From assembly GCF_900119155.1 (NCBI RefSeq), contig NZ_FPIR01000008.1:1-64000 (forward strand): DNA of 64,000 nucleotides. Direction: 5' to 3'. The position numbers and the translations under genes were made by a program. Under the pieces are notes generated by a model. The model searched no databases and was not told the origin of the DNA. It was given only the letters and a program-made list of their open reading frames with translations. Source of the stretch: Ruminococcus sp. YE71. Lineage in GTDB: Bacteria; Bacillota; Clostridia; Oscillospirales; Ruminococcaceae. Positions 14,056 through 64,000 of this stretch are shown one piece after another; the first letter of the stretch is position 1, and each line of letters opens with the position of its first letter.

Positions 14056-14109
14056 AGAAATGTCTTTGCAGACGCAGATCTGCAATATCGTATGGAGGAA
14101 AAATCAAGC

Positions 14110-15240
14110 ATGAAAAACATCTTAGCTCTGCTTCGTCCCGAACGCGCTCACGCATGGGCAAAGCAGACACATCTCGACATTACCGAAAACGCACTGGCAC
14201 TTATCGAAAGCGAAAAGAAGCAGAAGCTTATAGCTTTGACCAAGCCGTATAAAGATAAGATACTCAAAGGCAGCACCGACCCCGACCGTGAGGGCGATAT
14301 CGACAAGGGTCCCGGTACACATTATTATTCATCCGCAAGCCCTAAAGGCAAGGCGTTCGGCAAGACCGAGGGATACTATCCCAACCGTCTCGGCAACGTG
14401 GCGAAGAGCGCCCGCACCATGCTCGAAGACAACTACACCTGCGCCGTGAACCTTTACAAGAACGGCAGGGAAGCCGAGGGTCTCTATTATCTCGGCAGAG
14501 CCATCCACTTCCTTGAGGATATGAGCAACCCCGCTCACACCGCTTCGATGAAGTTCGAGGACAAGGCGACCAATCCCCACAAGGCTTTTGAAAAGCACGC
14601 CGTGAACATCGCAAAGCGCTACACCGCACAGCAGTTCGACAAGCGTCTTATCAAGACCTTCTCGGGCGACAGCTTCGAGAATGCGGCAAACAAGCTCAGC
14701 GAGACCGCGAACAAGTTCGCTCCCTCTATCACGGGTCTCGACCCGAAAGCCTTTGAGGAAGCCGTAAAGAATATGGTGCCTGTTGCCGTTCAGAACGTCG
14801 TTGCTCTTATCAACCGTTTCTGCGACGACTGCGCAAAGGACAACGCCAACTACCTCATCGACGGCATGAGCTGCCACATCAGATGCGAAGGCACGGGACT
14901 TATCCTCACTCAGGAGACAAAGGGCGTGATCCTCGACAAACTCGACCCTAAGCGTGAAAAGCCCCAGAAAATGACGCTCATCCTCGCTGATTCGGGCACC
15001 TTCGCCATCCGCGTACCCGACGGTCAGTTCCTTTCGGGCAACCTGAAGAACCTCGACACTGTACTCGGCGAAGCGCAGGGCGAACAGTTCCGTTTCACCG
15101 CACTGGGCAAGAACCGTTTCCGCATCAGCCCCGAAGTCACACGCTACGAGAAAGTGCTCGCCTGCACCAAATCGGGCGGACTCGTGCTGACCGAGCTCGA
15201 CCCCAAGGACAAAAATCAGGTCTGGATCATCAATAAGTAA
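14110..15240 (+). CDS. Zinc-dependent phospholipase C-like protein with C-terminal beta domain
   Basis: 376 residues. Residues 16-190 match the alpha-toxin/PC-PLC fold. W16, H21, D59, H71, H133, D137, H143, H157 and E161 fall where the zinc ligands lie, with the key spacings kept (H+4 D+10 H; H+4 E; D+12 H). Residues 240-376 (RCEGTGLILTQ, GQFLSGNLKN, FRISPEVTRY, GLVLTELDPKDKNQVWII) look like a beta-trefoil or other lectin-like domain. In known enzymes the zinc-bound Trp is the mature N-terminus. Here A-H-A precedes W16 but the first 15 residues are not a normal signal peptide. The start at 14110 follows GGAGG. Substrate unknown. Confidence 0.75.
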   Translation: MKNILALLRPERAHAWAKQTHLDITENALALIESEKKQKLIALTKPYKDKILKGSTDPDREGDIDKGPGTHYYSSASPKGKAFGKTEGYYPNRLGNVAKSARTMLEDNYTCAVNLYKNGREAEGLYYLGRAIHFLEDMSNPAHTASMKFEDKATNPHKAFEKHAVNIAKRYTAQQFDKRLIKTFSGDSFENAANKLSETANKFAPSITGLDPKAFEEAVKNMVPVAVQNVVALINRFCDDCAKDNANYLIDGMSCHIRCEGTGLILTQETKGVILDKLDPKREKPQKMTLILADSGTFAIRVPDGQFLSGNLKNLDTVLGEAQGEQFRFTALGKNRFRISPEVTRYEKVLACTKSGGLVLTELDPKDKNQVWIINK

Positions 15241-15246
15241 AACAAC

Positions 15247-15277
15247 AAGGGCACCGCGTTGAATGCGCAGTGCCCTT
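15247..15277. terminator. Bidirectional terminator between the phospholipase-like gene and cheX
   Basis: AAGGGCAC (15247-15254) pairs with GTGCCCTT (15270-15277), with a GCG/GCG inner region. TTTAATTATT follows on the plus strand and a TTGTTGTTTTAC tail on the minus strand. Confidence 0.82.
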
Positions 15278-15297: not shown

Positions 15298-16179
15298 TCA
15301 GAAAGAGATAGCGAAAGCGACCTCACCGAATGTGAACTGAACGGGGATAAGGAAGGTCTCGCGTCCTATCTCGCAGGGGTCGCCCTTTGTGAAGGCAAGG
15401 GGAGTGAGCGAGATCTCGGTACCGCTCTCGTTCGATTCGTTTACGGCGTACAGACCGTTGCAGACATTAAGGAACTCGGCAACGCTCGCGTCATCGAATT
15501 CAGGGTCGGCAACGTAAGCGTCCTTCGCGAAACGCTTTGCAAAAGTCCTGTACTCATACTCGCCCGTAGCGATAACGGTCACGCCCGAGTAAGCGCCCGT
15601 GATGTCCTGACGGACAGTGCGCTCTGCCTCGACGCTCTTGACTATCTCCGCCTCAAGCGGAGTGAAGTCATCGCCGATGAATCTGATAAGGCTCTTGAAA
15701 AGGAGCGTAGCGTAGCTGGTATAAAGACGCGCATTCGCCGCAGTCCCGAAATGGAAGAACTCCTTTACCAGCATACCCATCTTGTCGTTGCTCTCGGCAT
15801 TGAGATCCTCGTCTTCGATGGAAAGGTCCTGCTTGTAGGTGTTGATCGCGGTCTCGAAATCCGCATTGGACAGAACGCCCATATTCACGAGGGTCTGACC
15901 CAGCAGCAGATAGTCGGTAGGCTGCTTTGACAGCAGTTTTTCAACGTCCTCGGCAGCGATGTATCCCAGCTCGACCGCAAGATCGCCGAAACGCTTGTCC
16001 ACCGTCTGCTGAGTGACATTTACGATCTCGACCTGTTCGGATGTCATAAGACCCTCATTGATAGCCAGAACACCGAGTCTCATACGGGTGTTCTTCTTCT
16101 CGTCGAGCGCCTTTGCGAGCTGTTCTTTGGTCACAAGACCGTTATTGAGCAGAAATCCTCCGAAAAACTGTGAAAACAT
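15298..16179 (-). CDS. CheX-like phosphatase with four MshEN-like repeats
   Basis: 293 residues. The N-terminus holds four repeats of exactly 29 residues with glycines at 7/14, 36/43, 65/72 and 94/101 (RLGVLAINEGLMTSEQV, RFGDLAVELGYIAAEDV, LLGQTLVNMGVLSNADF). This is the pattern of the MshEN (type II secretion ATPase N-terminal) motif, which in MshE binds c-di-GMP. Residues about 135-293 resemble CheX, with E235-x-x-N238 and G242 where CheX has its catalytic Glu/Asn that dephosphorylate CheY. The stand-alone receiver gene ends 2 bp upstream. c-di-GMP binding and phosphatase action are inferred. No other chemotaxis or flagellar gene is in the window. Confidence 0.75.
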   Translation of the reverse strand: MFSQFFGGFLLNNGLVTKEQLAKALDEKKNTRMRLGVLAINEGLMTSEQVEIVNVTQQTVDKRFGDLAVELGYIAAEDVEKLLSKQPTDYLLLGQTLVNMGVLSNADFETAINTYKQDLSIEDEDLNAESNDKMGMLVKEFFHFGTAANARLYTSYATLLFKSLIRFIGDDFTPLEAEIVKSVEAERTVRQDITGAYSGVTVIATGEYEYRTFAKRFAKDAYVADPEFDDASVAEFLNVCNGLYAVNESNESGTEISLTPLAFTKGDPCEIGRETFLIPVQFTFGEVAFAISF

Positions 16180-16181
16180 TA

Positions 16182-16562
16182 TCAGATCACTCCCTTCGCA
16201 ACGTTCTCGATGGTCTGCTTGACCTGATCGTTAGAGATAGGCTTCTGTAAGAAGTCGGTGGCACCTGCCTTGATGGCAGCCTTGAGGTGGTTCTGAGTGC
16301 CGACGGACGAAGCCATGATGACCTTCGCGTCAGCATCGATCTCGCGGATCTTTGCGAGGGCGTCGATACCTGTAACTACAGGCATTACGATGTCCATGAA
16401 CACAAGGTCGGGTCTGTGCTCGGAGTACGCTTCGATAGCCTGCTGACCGTCAGCGGCCTCGAATACGTTCTCGATACCCATAGATTTGATAAACATAACA
16501 AGGCTTTTGCGTGCAAACATGGAATCGTCGCATACAAGTACCTTCATCTCTTCTATCTTCAT
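16182..16562 (-). CDS. CheY-like stand-alone response regulator receiver
   Basis: 126 residues, one receiver domain and no output domain. D12, D13 and the phospho-acceptor D57 (VFMDIVMP), S85/S86 and K107 (LQKP) are all in place. The start at 16562 follows GGAGGTAA; the longer frame to 16643 has no ribosome site. It is first in a two-gene unit with the CheX-like gene and is probably its substrate. The kinase that phosphorylates it is not obvious nearby. Confidence 0.92.
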   Translation of the reverse strand: MKIEEMKVLVCDDSMFARKSLVMFIKSMGIENVFEAADGQQAIEAYSEHRPDLVFMDIVMPVVTGIDALAKIREIDADAKVIMASSVGTQNHLKAAIKAGATDFLQKPISNDQVKQTIENVAKGVI

Positions 16563-16599: not shown

Positions 16600-16628
16600 A
16601 TTTTAACATAAAATGAATTTTTTTGCAA
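16600..16628 (-). promoter_or_regulatory. Sigma-A promoter of the cheY-cheX unit
   Basis: Minus strand: TTGCAA (16628-16623), 17-bp spacer, TAAAAT (16605-16600). Confidence 0.75.
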
Positions 16629-62317: not shown

Positions 62318-64000
62318 ATGTTAGAAAACGATATTATATTCAAAAAAATAGCTGAGGCATTGCTTGTTGATTATACGAGCGTTTACTATGTCAATGCTGT
62401 CACTAATGAATATCAGTGGTATTCTGCCGATCCCGAGTTCCACTCGCTGCATCTCGAACAGCATGGCAGTGACTTTTTCAAGGATCTCATCACCGATTCC
62501 GAAAAGGTCATCTACGAGGACGACAAGCACATCTTTCAGCATGATATACAGAAAGACAAACTTCTCGAAAAGATCGGCAAGGGCGATATGCATAACATCA
62601 TCTATCGTCTGATGATCGACGGAAAGCCCGTTTACCATACGCTCCGCCTTATCCGCGGGATGTCCGATGAAAGCGACTACTTCATATTCGGCGTCATCAA
62701 CATCGACACCGAATACCGCGAAAAGCTCGAAGCAGAGCGCTTGCAGAACGAGCGCGAGATCTTCGACCAGATAGCAGGAAGCCTTGCGGAACATTACGAT
62801 ACGCTCTATTATGTTGACCTCGAAACGAACAGCTACTTTGAATACTCATCCACCGACACTTACAAGAAGCTGAATATCCCCGTCACGGGAGATGACTTTT
62901 TTACAGAAAGCGAAAAAAATCTGCGCAGATGCGTATATCCCGACGACCTTGAGAAGGTGCTTGAGATATACAAGAAAGAAACCATATTGCAGAATTTGTC
63001 GGTCAACAGGCTGTTTACCGACTCATACCGCCTGCTCGTTGACGGGGAAGTCATGCACATACGCTGTTCACACATTCTCACCAACGATAAAAAGCATCTT
63101 ATCATATGTATCGAGAACATCAACTCCGAGATCTCGGCGATCGAGGAGCTGAACGAGAGCCGCAGAAAAAGCATAACTTACGGTCAGATAGCACAGAGCC
63201 TTGCCTCCCACTACGACGTTATCTACTACGTGGATATGAAGACAAGGAACTATCAGGAGTTCACGGCAAAATCCATCTACGGTTCGTTCGAGTTTCAGGA
63301 GGACGGCAAGGATTTCTTCTATGAGTCTCACAGATATGCGAGGTCGCTTGTACACCCCGACGACCTGAACAGCGTGCTGTCCGTCCTCAGCCGTGATTAT
63401 CTCATTTCCGCACTTGAAGACAAAAAGCAGTTCAGTCTGGACTACAGGCTGATAGTTGACGGTTCGACACAGTACACTCGCATGACCATCATGTGGTCGG
63501 GCGACAGTGCGCACTTTATCATCGGCGTTGAGAATATCGACGCTGAGGTTCGCAAGAAGATGGCACAGCAGGAAGCCCTCGACCACGCTTCACAGCTCGC
63601 TCTGCGCGACGAACTGACGGGAACGAAGAACAAGAACGCCTACAGAGAGCTTGAAAAGACCGTTCAGAACAGCATATCGAGCAAAAACGGCTGTGACCCC
63701 TTCGCGGTGGCAGTCTGCGACATCAACGGTCTGAAACATATAAACGACACCCTCGGACACAAAAAGGGTGACGAATACATCTGCTCGGCCTGCAAGATGA
63801 TATGCGATATTTTCTCTCACAGTCCTGTTTACAGGATAGGCGGAGACGAGTTCGTTGTATTCCTGCGTGGAAAAGATTATTCGCTCAGGGAAGACCTTAT
63901 GACCGATCTGAGCGCTCAGGTCGGGGAGAATATACGGAAGAAGCAGGGACCGATAGTTGCGGCAGGCATATCAGAGTTCGATCCCGATACGGACACGAAG
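62318..64000 (+). CDS. Diguanylate cyclase (GGDEF) with three PAS-like repeats, cut by window edge
   Basis: 561 residues are visible and the gene continues past the window. Three repeats of about 140 residues begin near residues 10, 151 and 290 (KIAEALLVDYTSVYYVNAVT, QIAGSLAEHYDTLYYVDLET, QIAQSLASHYDVIYYVDMKT), each PAS-like and ending in a short helix. A GGDEF domain starts near residue 435 (ALRDELTGTKNKNAY), and the intact RIGGDEFVVFL is at 506-516. There is no TM segment, so the sensor input is cytoplasmic. It should make c-di-GMP from GTP. CGGAGG precedes the ATG. Confidence 0.93.
   Translation, partial: MLENDIIFKKIAEALLVDYTSVYYVNAVTNEYQWYSADPEFHSLHLEQHGSDFFKDLITDSEKVIYEDDKHIFQHDIQKDKLLEKIGKGDMHNIIYRLMIDGKPVYHTLRLIRGMSDESDYFIFGVINIDTEYREKLEAERLQNEREIFDQIAGSLAEHYDTLYYVDLETNSYFEYSSTDTYKKLNIPVTGDDFFTESEKNLRRCVYPDDLEKVLEIYKKETILQNLSVNRLFTDSYRLLVDGEVMHIRCSHILTNDKKHLIICIENINSEISAIEELNESRRKSITYGQIAQSLASHYDVIYYVDMKTRNYQEFTAKSIYGSFEFQEDGKDFFYESHRYARSLVHPDDLNSVLSVLSRDYLISALEDKKQFSLDYRLIVDGSTQYTRMTIMWSGDSAHFIIGVENIDAEVRKKMAQQEALDHASQLALRDELTGTKNKNAYRELEKTVQNSISSKNGCDPFAVAVCDINGLKHINDTLGHKKGDEYICSACKMICDIFSHSPVYRIGGDEFVVFLRGKDYSLREDLMTDLSAQVGENIRKKQGPIVAAGISEFDPDTDTK

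Follow-up and report, generated by a model that had tools for sequence, protein, structure and literature searches.

Two consecutive genes on the minus strand of Ruminococcus sp. YE71 contig NZ_FPIR01000008.1 encode a 126-residue CheY receiver and a 293-residue protein that joins MshEN-like repeats to a CheX-fold domain. We propose, with slightly better than even confidence, that the pair constitutes the CheY and the dedicated CheY-P phosphatase of a split CheA chemosensory pathway, and that the phosphatase is gated by c-di-GMP. The domain assignments, the pairing of CheY with CheX, and the placement in this pathway are supported by sequence and comparative genomics.

Organization of the locus

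The window—the whole stretch of 64,000 nucleotides that was analysed, taken from a genome of 4.07 Mb—carries the pair at positions 15298–16562, with the receiver first, then 2 bp, then the 293-residue protein. The coordinates, strand and translation reported for both genes in an earlier note on this DNA proved correct on re-reading, and the 126-residue receiver with D57 and K107 does end 2 bp before the start of the CheX protein, as that note had it. The features of the locus are as follows.

16182–16562, minus strand: CheY gene, single receiver with D57 and K107 (126 aa; PF00072, 98.7 bits)
15298–16179, minus strand: MshEN-CheX gene (293 aa; NF053729 match, Foldseek CheX fold)
16096–16167, minus strand: repeat 1, degenerate (residues 5–28; F5 for Arg, K28 for Gln), from sequence and conservation
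15922–16080, minus strand: repeats 2 and 3 (residues 34–86), proposed c-di-GMP site, from profile alignment to MshE and conservation
15835–15906, minus strand: repeat 4, degenerate (residues 92–115; L92 for Arg, Y115 for Gln), from sequence and conservation
15301–15732, minus strand: CheX-fold domain (residues 150–293), from Foldseek and from Pfam CheX in orthologues
15466–15477, minus strand: E235-F-L-N238, the ExxN phosphatase motif, conserved in 117 sequences
15247–15277, minus strand: terminator-like hairpin of 12 pairs, 3' of the gene pair (weak)
16600–16628, minus strand: promoter-like hexamers with TG ahead of the second hexamer, upstream of cheY (weak)

The last two are graded as weak because the region contains two terminator-like sites where 2.2 are expected from shuffles, and four promoter-like sites against 2.2 ± 1.7 in shuffled sequence. 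Searching the whole window with Rfam at the gathering score identified one tRNA and no other family. Convergent with the pair is a gene for a zinc-dependent phospholipase C-like protein (14092–15240, plus strand; PF00882, 28.6 bits against a cut-off of 26.8), the C-terminal region of which has no Pfam match. A GGDEF protein (62318–64000, plus strand; Pfam GGDEF, 57 bits) is cut by the end of the window and also has a weak PAS_3 match below the cut-off. The nearest named relatives of the MshEN-CheX protein are in Ruminococcus metagenome bins (92% identity), with R. albus and R. bicirculans more distant.

The MshEN-like repeats

Residues 1–118 of the 293-residue protein consist of a 29-residue repeat in four copies, with glycines at 7/14, 36/43, 65/72 and 94/101 just as had been described, and the repeats are free of gaps in an alignment of 30 MshEN-CheX proteins. 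The mean BLOSUM62 self-score is 0.82 at a lag of 29 residues and 0.72 at a lag of 58, with all other lags from 5 to 60 at −0.40 or below; none of 5,000 shuffles reached the lag-29 score, and the 29-residue period is therefore not a product of chance.

The suggested kinship of the repeats with MshEN is borne out both by profile and by structure. The NCBIfam c-di-GMP motif NF053729 (cut-off 38) matches the whole protein with 77.4 bits and residues 1–117 with 89.5 bits; on two-repeat fragments it scores 49.7 bits (repeats 1+2), 38.1 bits (2+3) and 38.5 bits (3+4). A profile of the 30 proteins matches Vibrio cholerae MshE (5htl) with an E-value of 9.1e-07, positions 30–87 aligning with MshE residues 5–62. 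The AlphaFold model of the protein (mean pLDDT 89.1) was compared with MshE in its c-di-GMP complex (5htl_B) using Foldseek, which superimposed 53 columns at 0.8 Å with 30% identity and a probability of 1.00, the E-value for the whole model being 0.46. The Pfam MshEN model PF05157 gives no match to the window protein at E ≤ 10, and its only match in the genome is PilB; we do not count this against the assignment because on that PilB the model covers residues 62–147. The MshEN region of the same PilB (L158:4204–5892) has an N-terminal motif that appears, by eye, to be weak at the Arg and Gln positions.

Residues R34-L35-G36-V50-N54-Q57 align with MshE R9-L10-G11-L25-L29-Q32, and R63-F64-G65-V79-L83-Q86 with MshE R38-L39-G40-L54-L58-Q61. 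Gly36, Gly65 and Gln57 are invariant in 117 distinct sequences, Gln86 is kept in 115, and Arg or Lys is present at position 34 in all 117 and at position 63 in 109. The ligand-contacting Arg, Leu, Gly and Gln positions of repeats 2 and 3 are kept or conservatively changed, with the exception of that of MshE Leu29, which is Asn in 63 sequences and His in 53 (116 of 117). The four repeats are not equivalent as had been supposed, for in the window protein the motif Arg and Gln are missing from repeats 1 and 4. Across the 117 sequences the Arg of repeat 1 is replaced by Phe, Tyr or Leu, and its Gln position is mostly Lys (86; Gln in 19); in repeat 4, Leu or Ile usually stands in for the Arg, and Tyr for the Gln in 115. 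On these positions we reject four equivalent c-di-GMP sites, and because only repeats 2 and 3 keep both Arg and both Gln, we predict one site rather than two or four; a single c-di-GMP site formed by repeats 2 and 3 is plausible from the sequence. Conservation alone is no proof of ligand binding, since F6, G7, L21 and Y115, residues of repeats 1 and 4 at non-ligand positions, are preserved in 115–116 of the 117 sequences and a structural role would look alike.

The CheX domain

Fold comparison was needed to identify this domain, since a sequence profile of it yielded only chance matches among PDB sequences, and no CheX. The 13 top Foldseek matches are all CheX, CheC-like or putative chemotaxis proteins, each about 150 residues long (E-values 1.7e-08 to 5.3e-06; TMt 0.69–0.79), and the CheX structures 3hm4, 1squ, 1xko and 3hzh are matched with TMt of 0.70–0.79. 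Pfam CheX matches 28 of the 30 MshEN-CheX proteins at E ≤ 1; the window protein scores 19 bits, under the cut-off of 27, and several orthologues exceed it (for example 36.5 bits in G071 and 34.9 bits in G226). Pfam matches to FumaraseC_C (26 of 30) and DUF4388 (22 of 30) were set aside, the former being far below the cut-off on the window protein.

CheX and CheZ are described as positioning the attacking water through an acid and an amide, with ExxN as the motif (PMC3510030). The E235-x-x-N238 motif pointed out earlier is present, and both residues lie within a predicted helix (226–252), so the ExxN helix is in place in a domain with the CheX fold. Among the 117 sequences the first position is Glu in 111, Asp in five and a gap in one, and the last is Asn in 115, Ser in one and a gap in one. 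A fixed-offset numbering of the motif against the Thermotoga CheX model pointed to positions 91 and 94, and we make no use of it. The CheX assignment thus rests on Pfam, fold and motif; counting against it are the score of the window protein, which is under the Pfam cut-off, and the failure of the profile to find a PDB CheX.

CheY and the chemosensory genes of the genome

D12, D13, D57 and K107 of the window CheY are invariant in 30 CheY proteins, and the best match of the CheY profile is Thermotoga CheY (1tmy; E-value 8.1e-36). The earlier note described a lone receiver with no chemotaxis genes in view. This holds for the window but not for the genome, which encodes CheA, CheW, CheR, CheB and one MCP elsewhere, and the idea of a lone receiver outside chemotaxis is not supported. 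CheA, with Hpt, P2, dimerisation, ATPase and CheW domains, is encoded with CheW on one stretch (L036), and CheR, CheB and CheW are encoded on another (L037); the one MCP (L154) has a HAMP domain and a Cache-like stretch just below the cut-off. Neither the CheA-CheW nor the CheR-CheB-CheW stretch contains a stand-alone CheY or a relative of the CheX protein, and the che cluster of genome G113—with the source genome, one of two in which CheA was read directly—also contains neither. The receivers in the che stretches of these two genomes are those of CheB and of one 254-aa regulator.

Searching the source genome for receivers at E ≤ 1e-3 gave 41 matches, and the window CheY is the only one in a short frame; the other 40 are in open frames of at least 196 aa (the lengths are those of open frames, not genes). 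At the same threshold no flagellin, CheC or Pfam CheX was found in the genome, although the window gene itself misses that threshold for Pfam CheX. Because CheA, CheW, CheR, CheB and MCP genes are present elsewhere and no CheC or other short-frame receiver was found, the window pair probably supplies the CheY and the phosphatase that the che clusters lack. GGDEF domains number at least 46 in the genome, that of the window's GGDEF gene among them, a lower bound obtained by scoring 48 of 56 candidates.

Distribution of the pair and co-occurrence with chemosensory genes

A close relative (E < 1e-30) of the MshEN-CheX protein is present in 41 of 247 family genomes, source genome included, and in 38 of these 41 a CheY gene lies upstream on the same strand (at a distance of about 260 bp in G122). 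The same arrangement is seen in all 80 loci of the genome_contigs set, which comprises the best 80 of 255 relatives and partly overlaps the family genomes. At the level of the phylum, full or near-full-length relatives were found in 13 of 398 genomes (E ≤ 1e-37). Beyond the family, CheY is adjacent in 10 of 11 loci from 11 genomes, being downstream in four of these. In five relatives at a greater distance CheX and CheY are retained and the c-di-GMP motif has no match at E ≤ 0.01. A second relative is present in G468.

The largest shared neighbour families of the 80 loci, presumably dnaX-, recR- and ybaB-like, are present in at most 18, and there is no third che gene among the 12 largest. In five of the 80 loci a member of one protein family is encoded ahead of the pair, on the other strand; the member in L109 (L109:132–560) is a possible phosphotransfer partner because it has an Hpt domain (27.2 bits).

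CheW was found in 33 of 36 pair-bearing genomes (five of the 41 being under 90% complete and left out) versus six of 27 pair-lacking genomes, which were hand-picked for completeness and are not a random sample (Fisher p = 2.2e-08, phylogeny ignored). Counted by genus the figures are 16 of 17 and 4 of 20 (p = 6.9e-06, phylogeny ignored), with G015 and G178 left out; these lack the pair and have CheW but belong to genera counted as pair-bearing, so two genera are mixed. Membership of the pair in the CheA pathway is supported by this co-occurrence with CheA/CheW. Fifteen of the 33 genomes with CheW and the pair have no CheC, and in these Pfam CheX finds either the pair's own gene (12) or nothing (3); CheC is present in every one of the six CheW genomes that lack the pair. 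All 39 CheW genomes therefore have the pair, CheC, or both. Flagellin_N is found in 22 of the 36 pair-bearing genomes and has no match in 14, and the pair thus tracks chemosensory genes more closely than it does the flagellum.

The three family genomes without an adjacent CheY all belong to one genus (g96; L155, L156 and L157). They have no CheW or MCP matches and no CheY relative within 7.5–8 kb around the MshEN-CheX gene, and their ExxN motifs read NxxN, DxxN and DxxD, of which DxxN alone is no clear loss because Asp is found in five of the 117 sequences. The MshEN motif still scores 62–75 bits, and its persistence without CheY suggests that the protein may have another, CheY-independent role in this genus. 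All three genomes are flagellin-bearing.

In Lachnospira eligens ATCC 27750 the order MshEN-CheX-CheY is found on one chain of 435 aa (WP_012740644.1; L171:5001–6308), annotated merely as a response regulator. Its repeats score 46.7 bits with the c-di-GMP motif, the best stretch being 40–86. This natural fusion suggests that the products of the two genes work together, and it makes a one-chain assay possible.

Proposed function and alternatives

CheA, with its CheY-binding P2 domain, would phosphorylate the window CheY at D57; the CheX domain would put E235 and N238 into the CheY active site, and the phosphate would be removed. Both steps rest on knowledge of these families together with the genome evidence. 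We infer, further, that c-di-GMP binds the pair formed by repeats 2 and 3 and alters the phosphatase rate, such that the c-di-GMP level would set the lifetime of CheY-P. As to the sign of the gating we can offer a guess, leaning slightly to activation, with high c-di-GMP damping CheY-P.

That the CheX protein of this pathway binds a ligand at all may be doubted, and it is unlikely, if by no means negligible, that the pair is indeed the CheY and phosphatase of a CheA pathway but has an MshEN module that no longer binds c-di-GMP and serves dimerisation, docking or localisation. MshE Leu29 packs on guanine, mutation of any single conserved hydrophobic residue lowers affinity more than 10-fold, and L29R is among the changes in XpsE, an MshEN protein that does not bind, as the main text of Wang et al. 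describes (PMC5013675). The near-universal Asn or His at this position accordingly counts against gating, as does the score of repeats 2+3, the lowest of the fragments and barely above the cut-off (38.1 versus 38 bits). A silent module would also account for the equal conservation of non-ligand positions in repeats 1 and 4, and for the five relatives that retain CheX and CheY without a motif match. It does not sit easily with the retention of both Arg/Lys and both Gln in repeats 2 and 3, at positions where repeats 1 and 4 differ, or with the abundance of GGDEF domains in the genome.

For gating within a CheA pathway, the two mixed genera (G015, G178), the five motif-less relatives and the MshEN without CheY in g96 are all unfavourable. 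The g96 genomes, in which MshEN stays while ExxN is altered and no CheY is adjacent, would fit a c-di-GMP receptor of the MshEN type in which the CheX domain serves chiefly as a scaffold for CheY, sequestering CheY or CheY-P instead of dephosphorylating it; given an ExxN motif nearly invariant in 117 sequences, and 15 CheW genomes with no other CheC/CheX match, we regard this as improbable. A shade less probable again is a pair that has no connection with the CheA pathway and whose CheY receives its phosphate from an orphan histidine kinase or from acetyl phosphate. Such independence would fit the location of the pair outside the che clusters read in the source genome and G113, the lack of che genes among the 12 largest neighbour families, and the Hpt-domain gene nearby in five of 80 loci, but it is opposed by the co-occurrence with CheW (33 of 36 versus 6 of 27), by the exact coincidence of a missing adjacent CheY with missing CheW and MCP matches, and by a CheA P2 domain for which the genome has no other short-frame receiver.

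Under the preferred reading, a c-di-GMP-gated CheY-P phosphatase of the CheA pathway, flagella are an improbable output, since no flagellin was found in the source genome. Type IV pili are the best candidate, offered as speculation: co-occurrence lent them no support in the 17 genomes in which MCP and T2SSE were searched. The ATPases found with T2SSE, which we take to be of the PilB/PilT type and which the source genome also encodes, are no pointer to the output because they are present in all 17, chemotactic or not. More tentatively, and with somewhat less than even confidence, we suggest that the only phosphatase of CheC/CheX type found for a complete CheA pathway is itself a receptor for c-di-GMP, which thereby directly sets CheY-P lifetime, and that in this flagellin-less Ruminococcus chemoreceptor signals and c-di-GMP converge through it on a single receiver that steers type IV pili or some other surface machinery.

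The links known to connect c-di-GMP with chemotaxis target receptors, CheR or the motor, or else compete with CheY. If our reading is right, a c-di-GMP-gated phosphatase would act on the output clock of the pathway itself, and the two signalling systems could communicate directly; the chemosensory pathway would have a role in a flagellin-less Ruminococcus, and the CheY and phosphatase missing from its che clusters would be named.

Comparison with known systems

MshEN-CheX fusions have been in print since 2016, in one main-text sentence of Wang et al. that names CheX among the partner domains of MshEN; the word CheY does not appear in that text (PMC5013675). Searches of open-licence literature turned up no paper on the pairing of MshEN-CheX with CheY, and among the papers they returned PMC5013675 alone has both MshEN and CheX. 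The present analysis adds the constancy of CheY as partner and the naturally fused protein, the prediction of one likely site altered at Leu29, the assignment of the pair as the CheY and phosphatase that a split pathway otherwise lacks, and the observation that CheY and ExxN change together.

The repeats resemble the MshEN domain of V. cholerae MshE (5htl) in their 24-residue motif, 5-residue linker and 53-residue pair, and in the Arg, Gly and Gln positions. They differ in that there are four tandem motifs, of which the middle pair alone has both Arg and both Gln, in the Asn or His at the Leu29 position, and in being fused to CheX, whereas those of MshE are fused to a pilus ATPase. The C-terminal domain is similar to CheX of Thermotoga maritima (1squ/1xko) and to that of the Borrelia burgdorferi CheX-CheY3 complex (3hzh) in fold, in the ExxN motif within a long helix, and in having a CheY partner; it shares 13–18% identity with solved CheX proteins over the structural alignments, and it is preceded by a repeat module of about 120 residues that they do not have. 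With CheC and FliY it shares the ExxNxxxG motif and, less strongly, the fold (E-values 4.5e-05 to 7.2e-04 for the T. maritima proteins), but the window protein has one CheX-like domain and one ExxN, whereas the CheC of a relative shows two. In gene placement, too, it departs from known CheX, being encoded beside cheY and away from cheA.
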